A stretch of DNA of 52,494 nt from a virus: the IMG/VR virus record IMGVR_UViG_3300042452_000944, positions 1 to 52,494 of that record. One strand, written 5' to 3'. A program made the position numbers and the translations under genes. Shown here one piece after another: positions 5,669 through 22,586 of the stretch. Every line of letters starts with the position of its first letter. Positions within the stretch are counted from its first letter, which is position 1. The notes beneath the pieces were generated by a model. The model saw only the letters and a list, made by a program, of their open reading frames with translations. It was not told the origin of the DNA and ran no database searches.

Positions 5669-6367
5669 TTAGGGTAGTGTGAATAATTTTTCCATAGCTT
5701 TTTTAGATCCTGTATCTTTAGTTAGGCTACTAGATATTTCTTTTTGCCATACGCATTGGAAATCATCGGGTGCTGTATATTCACTTACATAGATAGTATG
5801 ACCTTGATCGCGTTTAGTACGACACCATTGGTAGAAGGCTTGATGATCAAAAGTGGATGTTTTATAGGATGTAGTGTTTTTATAAGGAGGATCGCAATAT
5901 ATCGTACTATTGTCAGGTATAACAAGGTTTTTATAATCGGATACAAAAAGTGCGATCGTCTGGAGTTTAGGTGATTGTTTACAAGCGCTTTTGTAAGCTT
6001 CTTTAATATAATCGCGTCGATGTTCTTTATCTCTACGCCATCCACCAAAGAATTTACCCCCGTAACTAAGAGCGTATCCTATGTAGGATCTATGAGGATA
6101 ATCGAGATTGTTTCTAGCCTCTTTATAATCTTCTTCGGTGAACTCTTGATTATTTCTTGGTAGTTGATCTAGATGGTATTTTATTGATGATAAAGCTTGG
6201 ATAACGGTTTCGTTCAGGTCTGATCCGATACGATCGCCTGTAATTTTGTCTATTAAGTTAGCACCTCCTACAAAAGGTTCTACATAGACTTTACTTGCAC
6301 CATGGTGTTCAAGGATTATAGGAAGGATATGTTTAGCGATTCGCATCTTGCTACCCATGTATTTCAT
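5669..6367 (-). CDS. dam: DNA adenine methylase, Dam/D12 class
   Basis: N6-adenine DNA methyltransferase using S-adenosylmethionine. Visible features are the N-terminal MKYMGSKMRIAKHI, the SAM-binding motif VEPFVGGANLIDKI (residues 29-42) and the catalytic DPPY at 159-162. At 232 aa it is at the short end for the family but keeps both essential motifs. GATC specificity is the family norm and is inferred. It overlaps the upstream gene by ATGA, so it is translationally coupled within a four-gene minus-strand operon. A second Dam-type gene lies at 20757-21608. Confidence 0.88.
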   Translation of the reverse strand: MKYMGSKMRIAKHILPIILEHHGASKVYVEPFVGGANLIDKITGDRIGSDLNETVIQALSSIKYHLDQLPRNNQEFTEEDYKEARNNLDYPHRSYIGYALSYGGKFFGGWRRDKEHRRDYIKEAYKSACKQSPKLQTIALFVSDYKNLVIPDNSTIYCDPPYKNTTSYKTSTFDHQAFYQWCRTKRDQGHTIYVSEYTAPDDFQCVWQKEISSSLTKDTGSKKAMEKLFTLP

Positions 6368-7511: not shown

Positions 7512-8696
7512 TTATGCCGACTGAAGACCTTCCAAAGCGTAGAACTGAGGATTGGGTGCGATAACGTACCGAGGATTGTCTTGAACGAAAGGGGCGATAA
7601 TCGGTGCCGATCCACCAACAACCAAAATTTGAGCAAACTGATTGTGGATTTCTTTCCAACGAGTACGCATCTGGGTTTGGATATCGTCAATCCACTCAGG
7701 TAAGATCGCGTCGTAAGCAGTCTTAAAGTTGATAGCGTGAACAGCGAATGTGCCATCAGCGATCGCGTCTAGAATTTGGCCTTCTGATTTAATTAACCCT
7801 ACTTCAACCGCAATATGAGCGGCTAACGCGGAAGTAGCACCGTCTAGAACCAAATCGTAGTCTCTAACGATAGTCCCATCAGGATGAAACAATCGAGCGA
7901 TCGCTGTACCACCACCTAAGTCCAGAACACCGTTTAGATATTTAGGGTACTGATAAAGACCTTCCTTTAATGCACGATACCAGGCAAACTTACCTTCGGC
8001 GGCTACAATAACTCCCTTAACAGTTACGTTAAACTCACGACCGTTAACTGTAAAGTTATGCACACCTTTTAGATTCAAAAAAGGCGATCTTTGATCTTCG
8101 TCTTGGTCGTCGGGCACGGTACAAAGTAAGTTTTCGATTACAGCGTCTTGAGGTACTAGACCGGAAACGCCTGCGTAGAAAAATTGCTTAACTAGTTTCC
8201 ACTTATCACCACCAAAAGTAGGCTTAGCCAAAAATGAGCCAGCGATTTGACCAACAAGAAAACTGTTACCACCAAAACTAACATCGAAAGAAAGATCGTT
8301 AACAAAATCGTTAGTAGAGTAGTCAACGTCTTGGCGACTGGATTTTCTCAACGAATAACTGGGAAAGTTGATGATGGTTTTCCCATCAGTAATAGCGTTA
8401 AAACGATTACCTAGATCAAAACTGATTCGAGAGATTTGATTTTTTGTCTTTGAAGAAATGGCCATAGAAATTTTCCGCTCCGGTAGTGTAATACTACAAC
8501 TGGTATCTTTAGTATCATCTATCAAACTCAATTGTTCTAAACTAGGATCAGGAGGTAGAATCACTTCTAGATTGGAACCCCAAACGTTTTCCATTAATAG
8601 TTTTACGATTTGGCTAGTCGAAAGACCAGTTTGTTCGGCAGCTATACCTAAAGCTTGTGCGTATTTTCCAAAGAGTACAGGGCGAACAGAATTCAT
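7512..8696 (-). CDS. Actin-like ATPase, ParM/StbA type
   Basis: Filament-forming ATPase of the actin/Hsp70 superfamily, of the kind used for plasmid or phage DNA partition. Phosphate-1 motif FDLGN (D94-N97), phosphate-2 motif LDLGGGT (D259-T264) and adenosine motif VVGGSAPII (GGSA 361-364), followed by PNPQFYALEGL at the C-terminus. Length 394 aa. The ATG at 8696 avoids the 68-base overlap with the glycosyltransferase that an upstream start would create. Residues 1-78 precede the actin core and contain a helix-turn-like stretch (IAAEQTGLSTSQIVKLLMEN), which is unusual for ParM. Role inferred. Confidence 0.82.
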   Translation of the reverse strand: MNSVRPVLFGKYAQALGIAAEQTGLSTSQIVKLLMENVWGSNLEVILPPDPSLEQLSLIDDTKDTSCSITLPERKISMAISSKTKNQISRISFDLGNRFNAITDGKTIINFPSYSLRKSSRQDVDYSTNDFVNDLSFDVSFGGNSFLVGQIAGSFLAKPTFGGDKWKLVKQFFYAGVSGLVPQDAVIENLLCTVPDDQDEDQRSPFLNLKGVHNFTVNGREFNVTVKGVIVAAEGKFAWYRALKEGLYQYPKYLNGVLDLGGGTAIARLFHPDGTIVRDYDLVLDGATSALAAHIAVEVGLIKSEGQILDAIADGTFAVHAINFKTAYDAILPEWIDDIQTQMRTRWKEIHNQFAQILVVGGSAPIIAPFVQDNPRYVIAPNPQFYALEGLQSA

Positions 8697-8709
8697 TGTC
8701 TTTTTTTTT

Positions 8710-9579
8710 CTAAGAATTGATATATAGATCATAGCATCTGTTTGCGAAAGTCGTATCCCTATATTGGTATGTTTCAAAGAGGTTTTTGTAAAAGTCTGAC
8801 AATCTTTTAGATTTGCTTAAAAAGTTGATCGCATCTTGACCGTACAGATCAACTAGATCACATTGGTTATTCAATCTCATCTCGGCACATTGTCTAGCCA
8901 ATTCTGAATATCTTCTTTGTATCAGTATTTTATCAATGTTAAATCGTATGCTGTTAGATATAAATAACCTTTTATATAGAACTTCATCAACAAAACCCAG
9001 TTTGGATATTTCTATCAGTCTAAGCCACAGATCTCTATCTTGAGAGTAGTAGAAAGCGTTTCGATAACCACCAACGCGATCGTAGTGGTATTTTCTTATC
9101 ATTACTTCTCCACCAGTGAAGCAATTACGACCGTTGATTAATGAATATTGGAAAGTGTCGGGATGATCGCATACTCTAGTACGTCGGTATATATTACCTC
9201 CATGAGACATATCACAATCGAAAACATTACAACCCACAGCACTAAGATCGCGATCGTCCTTTAGAAGTCTATATTGTTTTTCCAATCGTGTTGGATAGGA
9301 AATATCTCCTGAACCATGGATGGCAATATAGTCACCAGATGATTGTTCAATGGCGTTGAGTAATCCATTAACAAAACCAATGTTTATGGAATGACGAATT
9401 ACTTTAAGTCGTGGATCTTGAAACTTTAGTAACTCTTCGTAGGTATGGTCCGTTGAACAATCATCGAAGGCAATGATCTCAAGGTTTGTGTAGGTTTGTC
9501 TTAATAGACTGCCAATAGAGGTTCTAACAAGGTTGCCGCGATTATAGAAGCCCGTTACAACACTAATTAAATCACTCAT
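8710..9579 (-). CDS. Glycosyltransferase, family 2
   Basis: GT-A fold nucleotide-sugar transferase. Motifs: the start strand LISVVTGFYNR, DDCSTD (39-44), GSGD (89-92) in place of the usual metal-binding DxD, and SQDRDLWLRL (179-188). At 289 aa it is a complete catalytic domain with no membrane anchor. It overlaps the MurA-like gene by 8 bases, so the two are co-translated. Possible roles are modification of host surface glycans or of phage DNA; the sequence does not decide. Confidence 0.85.
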   Translation of the reverse strand: MSDLISVVTGFYNRGNLVRTSIGSLLRQTYTNLEIIAFDDCSTDHTYEELLKFQDPRLKVIRHSINIGFVNGLLNAIEQSSGDYIAIHGSGDISYPTRLEKQYRLLKDDRDLSAVGCNVFDCDMSHGGNIYRRTRVCDHPDTFQYSLINGRNCFTGGEVMIRKYHYDRVGGYRNAFYYSQDRDLWLRLIEISKLGFVDEVLYKRLFISNSIRFNIDKILIQRRYSELARQCAEMRLNNQCDLVDLYGQDAINFLSKSKRLSDFYKNLFETYQYRDTTFANRCYDLYINS

Positions 9580-10831
9580 CGTCTTTATTAATGCTATGAA
9601 CTATGCCTAGCCCTCCAAGTTTTGTTTGTAGTTGATCATAGCCTCGTAGGGCCATATTTACCTTCCTGACTTTGCTAGGTCCATGATTGATAATTGCTGC
9701 CATCACCAAGGCCATACTACCCCGCAAGTCCGTTGATGTTACCACTGCCGAACCTGAGCGTTGACATCCATTGACGATGATTTTCCCTGAGTCCCAGGTT
9801 AAACAATTAGGGTAAAATCTAGATAATTCCTCAAGGTAGGTAGTGCGCTCTGGATAGCGATAGTCAAGGATTAGACTTCTACCCTTAGCATACAAAGCTA
9901 GAAGCACATAAAAGGGTTGCATATCGGATATGATGCCGGGGTGAGTACCACAGGCTACTTCAAAGGGCTGTAATCCGGAGGGAGCGATTGACTGTGGCGG
10001 AACCCAAACCGAATTAGAGTTTTGGAAGAAATCAAGCCCTATTCTACGGAGGTAGACTAAAGGGATTTCCATGAGATCAAACGGAACGTTCTCAACTAGA
10101 ACATTACCACCAGAGATCGCAGATAGGATAATCCAGGTTAAGGCCTCAATGCGATCTGAAATAATGGGAATTGTCGCTCCCCTAAGCTGTCTAACCCCCT
10201 CAATTTCAATTAGACTAGTTCCACTTACCGATATTTTTGCCCCCATTAAGATGAGCAAGTTAATCAGGTTTTCGATTTCGGGGGTGACATAGGCATTGTA
10301 GATTCTTGTAGTTCCCCTAGCAACTACAGCACATAATATGGCATTCTCTGTGCCTCCCACGGTGGATATGGGGAAATGAATGTCACCGCCGACGAGCTGA
10401 CCACTAACCCTAATATGATCTGGCTTTTCTTCCACCTGACACCCCAAGGATTGCCAGATCATTATGTGTAAGTCATACTTGCGACTACCAATATTACAGC
10501 CTCCTGGATAGGGGATATAGGCATTTCCTTGTCGAATTAATTGACCGGCGGCTAATAAATAGGTCGTTCTAATGGGAAATTTATAGTCCTCTAATTCCTG
10601 GGGTTTTAGATTGGAACAATTGAAGGATGCAGTCGAATCAAGGCTGACCTTTCCCCCCATTAACTCGATAAACCTTGCCTTGTATTGAACATCGAGTAGT
10701 TGGGTTGGGAAGTTAAGTAGGTTAATGGTTTCGTCCGTAAGCATTGATGCTGCCATCAGGCGAGTGGCAGCGTTTTTTGCTCCACTAACCCGAACCCTGC
10801 CTGAAGGAACCTGTTTGCCTTCAATCTGCAT
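9572..10831 (-). CDS. MurA-like enolpyruvyl transferase
   Basis: Closest in pattern to UDP-N-acetylglucosamine 1-carboxyvinyltransferase, the first committed step of peptidoglycan synthesis. It has the VSGAKNA motif (K19), the loop PGGCNIGSRKYDLH with the reactive cysteine at C112, the TDMQ-like SDMQPF segment and the LRGSMALVMAA motif near the C-terminus. About 419 aa, full length. A GTG 8 codons upstream is an alternative start. The stretch 10381-10440 is 31/60 G+C against 20/60 for 8881-8940 in its neighbour, and no full GCGATCGC octamer is seen, suggesting recent transfer. It overlaps the GT2 gene. Confidence 0.85.
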   Translation of the reverse strand: MQIEGKQVPSGRVRVSGAKNAATRLMAASMLTDETINLLNFPTQLLDVQYKARFIELMGGKVSLDSTASFNCSNLKPQELEDYKFPIRTTYLLAAGQLIRQGNAYIPYPGGCNIGSRKYDLHIMIWQSLGCQVEEKPDHIRVSGQLVGGDIHFPISTVGGTENAILCAVVARGTTRIYNAYVTPEIENLINLLILMGAKISVSGTSLIEIEGVRQLRGATIPIISDRIEALTWIILSAISGGNVLVENVPFDLMEIPLVYLRRIGLDFFQNSNSVWVPPQSIAPSGLQPFEVACGTHPGIISDMQPFYVLLALYAKGRSLILDYRYPERTTYLEELSRFYPNCLTWDSGKIIVNGCQRSGSAVVTSTDLRGSMALVMAAIINHGPSKVRKVNMALRGYDQLQTKLGGLGIVHSINKDDE

Positions 10832-10859
10832 GGTCAGATCTTTATGATATATCACATAC

Positions 10860-19800: not shown

Positions 19801-19827
19801 GGTAATTTAGTATGGTTAATGTATCAG

Positions 19828-19903
19828 TCCTCTGCCCTGGACTTGAACCAGGATGATGAACACCTTAGAAGGGTGGTGGCTTGTCCAATTAGCCCAGCAG
19901 AGG
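19828..19903 (-). tRNA. tRNA-Arg (UCU)
   Basis: A full cloverleaf: acceptor CCTCTGC/GCAGAGG, D stem GGCT/AGCC, anticodon loop CTTCTAA (anticodon TCT), T arm CCTGG-TTCAAGT-CCAGG, discriminator A. The anticodon stem has one mismatch at its base. It reads AGA, a codon common in this AT-rich genome. No CCA encoded. Confidence 0.9.
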
Positions 19904-19910
19904 AAAAATA

Positions 19911-19999
19911 TGGGAGTATAGGGAATCGAACCCTAACACGGCACTAATCAGGTGCGCTTCGGCTTATAAGACCGACGATGCTCCATACATCATACTCCC
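19911..19999 (-). tRNA. Class II tRNA with UAU anticodon
   Basis: Acceptor GGGAGTA/TACTCCC, D arm ATG/CAT with GG in the loop, anticodon stem TCGGT/GCCGA with loop CTTATAA (anticodon TAT), T arm TAGGG-TTCGATT-CCCTA, discriminator A. A 23-base variable arm has a 4-bp stem GCAC/GTGC, typical of Leu, Ser or Tyr tRNAs, whereas UAU would decode Ile AUA. It lies 7 bases upstream of tRNA-Arg and is probably co-transcribed. Amino acid identity unresolved. Confidence 0.8.
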
Positions 20000-20128
20000 T
20001 TGCGTTATCTTGATTATACACCACTTATCAAATTAATTCATATTTCTTAGCTCATTTGCGTACAGATCCGCTAGATACATTGTATTTTCTAGCTATAGCT
20101 TCCCATACTTTTGGACGGACGATCGCAC

Positions 20129-20536
20129 TTACAAGCTATACCAGGTTTTCCTGAGTAAACTGCGCGAAATACTCATTGTTACTAGCCGACCCTTTTTACT
20201 GAATTTACCGTTACGACCAGGGGCTCGTAATTCATAGTAGAAGTCATATTTTCCGTATCTATAGGGGTCTGCAATCCTAATGTTTGATACATACCCTTCG
20301 ATATCATCAGTTGGAGTTTCACTGGATTTAGCTACAACATAGTCTCCTACTTTGAATGGGGACTTCTCTGAGAGTAGTTCCATCAACATTGCTTCGGTGT
20401 TTTTTACAGTTGATAGAACATCTAACATAGAGTCCAATGATAGACTTTCACTAGATCCTAGATGATTCCCAGTTACTTTTAGAAGTTCGTTCGAAATTTT
20501 ACCTAAAGCTACACTTAGATCATCGTGATTGTTCAT
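20129..20536 (-). CDS. Hypothetical protein with SH3/KOW-like C-terminus, 135 aa
   Basis: The N-terminal helices are followed from about residue 69 by a barrel-like stretch (FKVGDYVVAKSSE ... EGYVSNIRI), the same plan as 13804-14235. The start is placed at the ATG at 20536 because the upstream ATG (20578) lies inside tRNA-Lys. Confidence 0.65.
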   Translation of the reverse strand: MNNHDDLSVALGKISNELLKVTGNHLGSSESLSLDSMLDVLSTVKNTEAMLMELLSEKSPFKVGDYVVAKSSETPTDDIEGYVSNIRIADPYRYGKYDFYYELRAPGRNGKFSKKGRLVTMSISRSLLRKTWYSL

Positions 20537-20570
20537 TGTATGTTCTTCTTTGTTAACTATTTGACGGCAA

Positions 20571-20641
20571 TGAGACATGGAAGAATCGAACTTCCATCAA
20601 GAGGTTAAAAGCCCCGTGCTTTACCGTTAAGCTAATGTCTC
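20571..20641 (-). tRNA. tRNA-Lys (UUU)
   Basis: Acceptor GAGACAT/ATGTCTC, D stem GCTT/AAGC, anticodon loop CTTTTAA (anticodon TTT), T arm GGAAG-TTCGATT-CTTCC, discriminator A. The anticodon stem has a terminal mismatch and one G-T pair. It abuts the truncated gene tail at 20640-20702. Confidence 0.88.
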
Positions 20642-20702
20642 ACTTTTTTCTATAATACACGAGGTCTTCTATGACCGTCAATAGAAACACCAACTGGATA
20701 TT
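20640..20702 (-). pseudogene. Duplicated C-terminal tail of gene 21617-22018
   Basis: Reads [18 protein letters not shown] then stop, against [18 protein letters not shown] then stop in the intact gene. A stop codon two codons upstream of QLVF shows it is only a remnant. Thirty-three bases (20664-20696) are identical to 21641-21673. The Dam gene lies exactly between the two copies. Confidence 0.8.
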
Positions 20703-20756
20703 CTATTTATTTCTATCTTATATTAAACGCTTTTAGAACTATTACTATTTTTTTCA

Positions 20757-21608
20757 TTAGAATTCATAAGGTGTAGTGTTGTAATTAGTAATAATAGCTT
20801 CAATCATGGGATTGCGGTTGTTATTACTTGCTCCAACATGGTAAAAATGTTCTTTAGTTAAAATATTAAACTTACCCCATAAAGATTTAACATATTCATT
20901 TTCTCTGAAGTCATTATGATGCCATGTAGATAATATAAATTTACTTTTTGTGTTTGATAGAGCTTTGAAGAGACACGTTTCGTGCTCACTATCCCAACTG
21001 TTGTAATAATCAACGTGTCTATCAATGTATGGTGGATCACAGTAAATAATATCTTCTGCCCCACTTTCGGAGATAGTTTTCTCGAAATCCTGACATTTAA
21101 AAATAAAATCTTTAGTCTTTAACAAAAGGCAGACATGAGAAATCTGATTAGTAATTTTCGTAATGTAAGCCTGAGCAAATCGCTGCGGTTTTCGACAGAA
21201 AGGTATATTGAATTCTCTTTTGCGGTTAAACCGAATCATTCCATTGAAGCCAGCCCTATTCAAAAACAAGAAATCGAGTGGTTGATGCTCCTTGTTGAAC
21301 CTCTCACGCACCTTGTAGTAGTGAGATTCGCCTTTATCTAAAAGCTTCGCACCTTCCTCTTCTAAGTAGCTTCTGACTTTTTCTGGCGTAATATTTCCGT
21401 CAGAAATACCTTTATAAAAGGCGATTAAATGAGGGTTTGTATCGCATAAGAGTGCATGTTTTGGTGCTAGGTTAAAGGCGACAACACCCGTACCCATAAA
21501 TGGCTCAACCCATCTTCCGTCAAATTCATGTGGGACTATGCTACTAATCCAAGGAACAAGCTTAGTTTTTATTCCTTGAGATTTTATGGGTGGAATATTT
21601 ACTTTCAT
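20757..21608 (-). CDS. Second DNA adenine methylase, D12/Dam class
   Basis: N6-adenine methyltransferase of 283 aa. It has the N-terminal [16 protein letters not shown] motif EPFMGTG (F37-G41), FNRAGFNGM-like [14 protein letters not shown] (115-128), IPFCRKP and catalytic DPPY (191-194). It is more like restriction-modification methylases in size than the first Dam. The ATG at 21608 is preferred over a start 26 codons upstream that would overlap the neighbouring gene. No cognate endonuclease is visible. Direct repeats flank it. Confidence 0.9.
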
Positions 21609-21616
21609 TTCTTGTG

Positions 21617-22018
21617 TTATCTTTTTTTGTAATATATGATGTCTTCTATGACCGTCAATAGAAACACCAACTGAATAATCGGCCACAGTAGACGCAGCCC
21701 TCTATAGTCAGATCGCATCTCTACATTCAGAAAGTGATGATTTTCCTTCTCTTCTTCAATGGTGAAAATTAACATACAGTTATTAACGTTAACTTTCGTA
21801 ACGTTGCGATCTTGTTCTATAGTCACTTCTTGTGTGTGACCAAAACGTTCTAAATTAAATCGTACTAATTCAGAAGATTTTGAAAAAACTTCTTTTACTT
21901 TTACACCGCACAAAGTAAACCAATGCGCTTTGTCTAGATGCCATATATCTAGGAGATGGTTTCTTTGAAGACTAATAGGTATATCAAACCTATATTTATT
22001 TTTAGCGATCAGATACAT
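21617..22018 (-). CDS. Membrane-anchored hypothetical protein, 133 aa
   Basis: A soluble beta-rich N-terminus is followed by one C-terminal hydrophobic segment ([20 protein letters not shown]) and a basic end, so probably tail-anchored in the membrane. The ATG at 22018 overlaps the previous gene by 17 bases; a start at 22063 is possible. Third gene of the nblA operon. Its last ~18 codons are duplicated at 20640-20702. Confidence 0.65.
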
Positions 22019-22253
22019 TTGAATTAATCCCGAGATTTCGATTTTCAAAAAGCTCCCTTTCATTAATAACTTTACAGGTGTTCAAACACCCTTCTCTTTT
22101 AGCATACTGACAAATACGTGTGTGTTGTACATCTGGTGCAAACTCTACATCATAGATCCGCTCGAACGTTTCGCCGTTCTTAACGGGTCTACTAACATAA
22201 AATATACCTTCTAAAACCCGAGTTTCACACACAGGACAGATTTGAATTTTCAT
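22002..22253 (-). CDS. Zinc-ribbon-like small protein, 83 aa
   Basis: CPVC at residues 6-9 and a later ICQYAKREGCLNTC cluster suggest zinc binding. ATGA overlap with nblA implies translational coupling. No further function visible; an accessory to NblA action is possible but untested. Confidence 0.65.
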   Translation of the reverse strand: MKIQICPVCETRVLEGIFYVSRPVKNGETFERIYDVEFAPDVQHTRICQYAKREGCLNTCKVINERELFENRNLGINSNVSDR

Positions 22254-22450
22254 AGTTGACGATTAATGTTTTGTTGATAATCCTCTACACCCAGCCTTTT
22301 TTTCAGTATAGCCTTATACATTGCTTCTCTGATCATCATGGTTCTGTGAACCTTCTTTAATAAATCCCTGGCCTGATCGGCACTCATCATATCGACTTTT
22401 TTATCGAATACGACCAATTCAAGTTCTTGTTCTAAAGTAAGTTCTTCCAT
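22250..22450 (-). CDS. nblA: NblA-like phycobilisome degradation protein, 66 aa
   Basis: NblA is a small helical adaptor that brings phycobilisomes to Clp protease. The order of conserved positions fits: LTLEQ (4-8), V19, MMS (21-23), QA (26-27), LL (30-31), MMIRE (38-42), Y45, L49 and G54, in a typical length of about 60 aa. Phage NblA homologues are known from some freshwater cyanophages. AGGA ribosome site 4 bases before the ATG at 22450. First gene of the operon nblA - zinc ribbon - membrane protein - dam, with a possible TATGAT -10 on the minus strand at about 22480. Confidence 0.85.
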   Translation of the reverse strand: MEELTLEQELELVVFDKKVDMMSADQARDLLKKVHRTMMIREAMYKAILKKRLGVEDYQQNINRQL

Positions 22451-22513
22451 TGGTTCCTAAGCTAATTGGTTGTCGATATCATATCATAGGTGTTATAGTA
22501 TTGCACAGGTCAT

Positions 22514-22586
22514 GCCGCCATAGCTCAATCGGTGGAGCAACAGTTTTGTAAACTGAAGGTTCCGAGTTCGAGTCTCGGTGGCGGCT
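22514..22586 (+). tRNA. tRNA-Thr (UGU)
   Basis: Acceptor GCCGCCA/TGGCGGC, D arm GCTC/GAGC, anticodon stem ACAGT/ACTGA with loop TTTGTAA (anticodon TGT), T arm CCGAG-TTCGAGT-CTCGG, discriminator T, no CCA. It is the only plus-strand tRNA of the group. Confidence 0.92.

Follow-up and report, generated by a model that had tools for sequence, protein, structure and literature searches.

Genes of the NblA family occur in PaV-LD and marine cyanophages as well as in the Microcystis phages Ma-LMM01 and MaMV-DC, whose NblA proteins share ~40-47% identity over the core with the one described here. Phage-borne nblA as such is thus already known, and it has hitherto been viewed as an auxiliary function carried by one gene; in Ma-LMM01, which belongs to a different phage group from ours, nblA adjoins nrdA and there is no NblD. 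NblA serves as an adaptor between phycobilisomes and ClpC (PMC7966870), phage NblAs cause loss of phycobilins when expressed (PMC9602691), and nblA of Ma-LMM01, an early gene, runs some twenty-fold higher than its host counterpart (PMC4103541). The host protein NblD, 66 aa long, takes part in phycobilisome degradation and is an interaction partner of beta-phycocyanin (PMC7760959); NblA, NblB and NblD have been described as NtcA-induced, and the precise function of NblD has been called unclear (PMC12638213). No phage NblD was found in literature treating NblD together with phage or cyanophage, a coverage outside which the original NblD paper lay.

The window analysed here is the whole of a 52,494-nucleotide stretch of DNA, a 52-kb virus fragment from IMG/VR. 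Its portal, major capsid and tail genes were homologous to those of the Cylindrospermopsis phages Cr-LKS4 and CrV-01T (major capsid 40% identical), and the likely host is therefore a freshwater filamentous cyanobacterium. Unlike the window phage, neither Cr-LKS4 nor CrV-01T had a match to nblA or nblD. A host search by DNA matches returned similarity in the methyltransferase, tRNA and phoH only, with no near-identical spacer-like match. The same locus was present in four IMG/VR contigs at 97-100% DNA identity, and in the window it comprised an overlapping run of genes on the minus strand (22450-22250, 22253-22002, 22063-21617 and 21686-20757) with the following features:

22451 to 22513, minus strand: 63-bp intergenic stretch between nblA and a divergent tRNA-Thr, presumed site of the operon promoter
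22250 to 22450, minus strand: nblA, encoding a 66-aa NblA homologue (PF04485, 61.6 bits; 1ojh, E 1.3e-8)
22002 to 22253, minus strand: nblD-like gene, 83 aa, with the Cys4 motif CPxC...RICQYAKREGCLN (NF053522, hhalign, shuffle and ORF controls, motif alignment)
21617 to 22063, minus strand: 148-aa orphan, possibly an SRPBCC-like domain with a hydrophobic C-terminal helix or tail anchor (AF2, Foldseek)
21622 to 21680, minus strand: upstream copy of a 59-bp direct repeat, at the 3' end of the 148-aa gene (54/59 identical to the empty site)
20757 to 21686, minus strand: Dam-type (D12) adenine methyltransferase on an inserted cassette (PF02086, 168.7 bits; TIGR00571, 204 bits)
20645 to 20703, minus strand: downstream copy of the repeat (57/59 identical to the empty site)

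The nblA and nblD-like genes overlapped by 4 bp (ATGA) and are probably translationally coupled, while the nblD-like and 148-aa ORFs overlapped by 62 bp; from gene overlap alone, we infer that the run would be co-transcribed. An AGGA ribosome-binding-like sequence lay ahead of nblA, and the 63-bp intergenic stretch was nearly unchanged among relatives. A promoter scan gave matches no commoner than in shuffles and, on the operon strand, none to the sigma-70 consensus for nblA. A cluster of tRNA genes surrounded the operon (19827-22586), with Arg-TCT, Ile-TAT and Lys-TTT on the minus strand and Thr-TGT on the plus strand. Against relatives, dN/dS was 0.14-0.16 for the Cys4 gene (~0.14) and the 148-aa gene (~0.15), values that rest on few changes and indicate that both genes are under purifying selection.

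The first-pass annotation had described a four-gene operon headed by nblA. Four overlapping genes on one strand are indeed present, but three of the four relatives lack the fourth, an insertion, and the conserved module is made up of three genes, namely nblA and those for the Cys4 and 148-aa proteins. In the three relatives lacking the methyltransferase (L003, L004 and L005), the DNA jumped from window position 21622 straight to 20703, and in the window the gene was bracketed by the 59-bp direct repeat, whose two copies were identical at 52 of 59 positions. Since the downstream copy is nearer to the empty site than the upstream one, the cassette seems to have supplied a substitute 3' end of the 148-aa gene. 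A second in-frame start of the methyltransferase (ATG at 21608) lay just past the stop of that gene. Judging from these junctions, the methyltransferase is a later-inserted cassette outside the conserved operon, and its absence in three relatives rules it out as an operon partner. No integrase or transposase was seen beside the cassette (20645-21686), and cyanobacterial genomes were found with methyltransferase genes 65-68% identical to that of the cassette. The window held a second D12-class adenine methyltransferase at 5669-6367 on the minus strand (43 bits).

Identification of the first gene as a phage-encoded NblA homologue, made in the first-pass annotation, was borne out by a Pfam profile search, in which the 66-aa ORF exceeded the PF04485 cut-off of 25 bits (E 9.7e-17) and was the one place matched in the whole 52-kb record. 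The accompanying claim that conserved NblA positions were matched along the whole product held for residues 3-51, which corresponded to profile positions 1-49; the C-terminal 15 residues lay outside the match. The solved Anabaena NblA 1ojh was matched by phmmer, as were further solved NblAs, and these comparisons make the assignment as an NblA homologue well supported. The protein was 91% identical to its counterparts in relatives and diverged from solved NblAs (31-43% identity); since it fell below the cut-off of the NCBIfam NblA equivalog NF045916 (17.4 bits, cut-off 100), we filed it under the Pfam family and not under that equivalog. Anabaena NblA reportedly binds phycobiliproteins through L51 and K53, a finding credited to Bienert et al. 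in 2006. The K53 equivalent was K50 in the window NblA, and the L51 position was I48, a conservative change; Ma-LMM01 NblA likewise has Ile there. In an NblA tree of 65 columns with long branches, the window NblA stood beside no host clade, and no donor was therefore indicated.

The second gene, whose ORF ended at residue 77 in L003, we named an NblD-like homologue and not NblD, because its product missed the 80-bit cut-off of the NCBIfam NblD equivalog NF053522 (22.6 bits, E 5.6e-5, in the window; 23.8 bits, E 2.2e-5, in L003) and had lost the central FSxGxPGTR of NblD, of which just F and one P were left. Profile-profile comparison with NblD by hhalign gave a probability of 96%. Against a host-only profile built from fetched cyanobacterial NblDs, proteins of the window group scored 20.6-22.3 bits, and the score of the NblD-like protein was reached by 0 of 20,000 shuffles and by a single one of 20,000 shuffles with cysteines fixed. 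When ~9,000 ORFs were ranked by NblD score, the window group came directly under the true NblDs, with the next ORF at 10.4 bits; among 335 ORFs that contained CxxC and four or more cysteines, the maximum outside NblD and the window group was 9.8 bits. An alignment of ten NblD and NblD-like sequences had in common a CPxC near the N-terminus and R[VI]CxYx5C[IL]N, with C, P, C, F, R, C, C and N invariant and the C-x7-C spacing exact. These two short segments were the full extent of the match, and they included the Cys-free positions R, Y, N and A-K; the linker was 11 residues shorter in the cyanobacterial NblD L133 than in the window protein.

Blind single-sequence queries with the NblD-like protein led to the same family. 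Across 386 cyanobacterial genomes the best match was L114 (E 7.1e-4 per genome, weak alone), which proved to be an NblD at 81.6 bits, and among other nblA phages the sole match was an ORF of contig G009 that is itself an NblD (63.1 bits). Neither Pfam nor PHROG gave a family for the Cys4 protein, no relative was found among phage records, and its AF2 model (pLDDT 47) was too low in confidence for use. On these comparisons we regard it as a diverged relative of NblD, the homology being distant but well supported. The earlier description of this product as a zinc-ribbon protein was right as to a real gene with a Cys4 motif, but NblD-like is the better name than an anonymous zinc ribbon.

No sequence relatives of the 148-aa product of the third gene were found outside this phage group, other phages included. 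Its only match in the 386 cyanobacterial genomes, L116, was secreted-looking, had no Pfam match and was set aside as chance level for that number of genomes; DUF3161 and DUF2112 were likewise rejected, their matches lying below cut-off. With a low-confidence AF2 model (pLDDT 59, pTM 0.55), nearly all best PDB matches in Foldseek were SRPBCC/START/Bet v 1 proteins at E 2e-3 and worse, and the strand and helix order of the model fitted the SRPBCC helix-grip topology. The protein had one hydrophobic C-terminal helix (Kyte-Doolittle maximum 2.05 over 19 residues, 125-143, with E140 and D141 within), which is hydrophobic enough for a membrane anchor but might just as well close an SRPBCC fold. A tail-anchored membrane protein had been proposed here; the single hydrophobic helix stands, but anchoring is uncertain, as the low-confidence model makes the helix part of an SRPBCC-like fold.

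We then compared the locus with nblA and nblD elsewhere. A search of IMG/VR for NblD (cut-off 80 bits) returned loci L177 (95.9 bits, contig G686), L178 and L179 (85.5 bits, contigs G687 and G688), G009 (63.1 bits) and L196 (66.4 bits). NblD genes of the L177, L178/L179 and G009 groups were set among phage terminase, portal, head, tail or replication genes, adjoining thyX in L178 and L179, and L196 was taken as phage from its IMG/VR classification and a thymidylate-synthase neighbour. An NblA-family gene was present in all four NblD contigs searched whole (G009 90 bits, G687 34.8, G688 34.3 and, marginally, G686 26.2; Pfam cut-off 25), and none was found in the 12.6 kb read of the 23-kb L196/L197 contig. 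Because the NblD loci of G687 and G688 are near copies of each other, and G686 is perhaps a distant relative of these contigs, these amount to two or three independent NblD groups besides that of the window. In G009, G686, G687 and G688, nblA and nblD lay 12-54 kb apart, whereas they overlapped in the window group only. Ma-LMM01 and contigs G008 and G010-G013 had nblA and no significant NblD match; a set of 50,697 phage records yielded no NblD, and there a host-like query recognised NblA in nine records only, all of Microcystis cyanophages. In hosts, nblD was absent from the fetched flanks of 80 nblA loci, and nblA from those of 21 nblD loci. As none of these host loci paired the two genes, their adjacency in the window looks phage-made. 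An ORF near nblD in G686 (L177, 5850-6515) was similar-looking to one directly after nblA in G687 (L191, 3413-4072), as if nblA and nblD shared one slot in related phages. The borderline NblA-family protein of G686 (L187, 2189-2389, minus strand) lay in a tail-gene module and may not cause bleaching.

We consider it likely that the locus is a cyanophage bleaching operon in which NblA and the NblD-like protein degrade the antenna, the third gene is a helper or bystander and the methyltransferase joined later by insertion and has a separate role, in DNA modification. NblA would link the rods of host phycobilisomes to the ClpC/ClpP protease, and the NblD-like Cys4 protein may bind the beta-phycocyanin subunit and aid its removal. 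Co-produced in infection, the pair would start phycobilisome degradation without the host nitrogen-starvation signal, with the effect of releasing amino acids and lowering light absorption. The first-pass annotation had suggested that the downstream products could be partners in dismantling antennae, an idea to which the resemblance of the second gene to NblD, a degradation factor that the annotation had not named, lends independent support; the third gene is unsupported in this role and the fourth, as an insertion, drops out. A fuller version, possible though unlikely, would make all three conserved genes a complete bleaching cassette, with NblA delivering to ClpC, the NblD-like protein stripping beta-phycocyanin, and the SRPBCC-like or membrane protein holding released bilins or pinning the complex at the thylakoid; if true, phages would have assembled an operon from genes scattered in their hosts.

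Other readings narrow the role of one or both proteins. If only NblA acts on phycobilisomes, the Cys4 product would be an unrelated small zinc-binding phage protein, such as a transcription or anti-defence factor, placed in this operon by chance and with convergent cysteine spacing. CPxC zinc ribbons are common, and the missed equivalog cut-off and just two short matching segments fit this, yet the match extends beyond the cysteines to R, Y, N and A-K, the result of the cysteine-fixed shuffles and the low scores of other CxxC ORFs speak against convergence, the best matches are genuine NblDs, and NblD accompanies NblA in other phages; we judge this explanation improbable. Retention of the K53 equivalent and the change of L51 to Ile as in Ma-LMM01, positions with a reported binding role, together with a partner that points to phycocyanin, argue against a phage NblA redirected as a ClpC adaptor to other host proteins, with bleaching not its purpose. 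That NblA is a ClpC adaptor (PMC7966870), and a diverged one in the window, would allow redirection, which nevertheless strikes us as extremely improbable. The pair might also remodel or trim the antenna, or handle free bilins or newly made phycobiliproteins, without wholesale phycobilisome degradation: NblA and NblB have been reported in chromophore rearrangement besides degradation (PMC7760959), and the exact function of NblD is unclear (PMC12638213), but the phage NblAs tested so far led to phycobilin loss (PMC9602691), and we find remodelling very unlikely.

New here are the NblD-like partner and the repeated occurrence of NblD in phages that also have NblA, and they suggest that in some phages the set of host bleaching genes goes beyond the one known so far. 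If phages also carry NblD, its recruitment with NblA by several phage groups would be natural-experiment evidence that NblD matters in phycobilisome disassembly. The compact two-gene unit lends itself to testing whether NblA and NblD do better as a pair, and could serve to mark bleaching phages in blooms.

Elsewhere in the window, an EPSP-synthase-family protein with a MurA-looking sequence (9572-10855, minus strand; PF00275, 155 bits) was followed by a family-2 glycosyltransferase (8710-9579), and the two are possible phage cell-wall genes. An actin-like protein (7512-8777, minus strand) had sub-threshold MreB-like and ALP matches and is possibly ParM-like, with parts rearranged in L005. A further phage contig (L109, 3926-4186 and 82-1476), whose capsid was 30% identical to that of the window, had an nblA of more host-like sequence at another position, and nblA may therefore have entered the window's phage group more than once.
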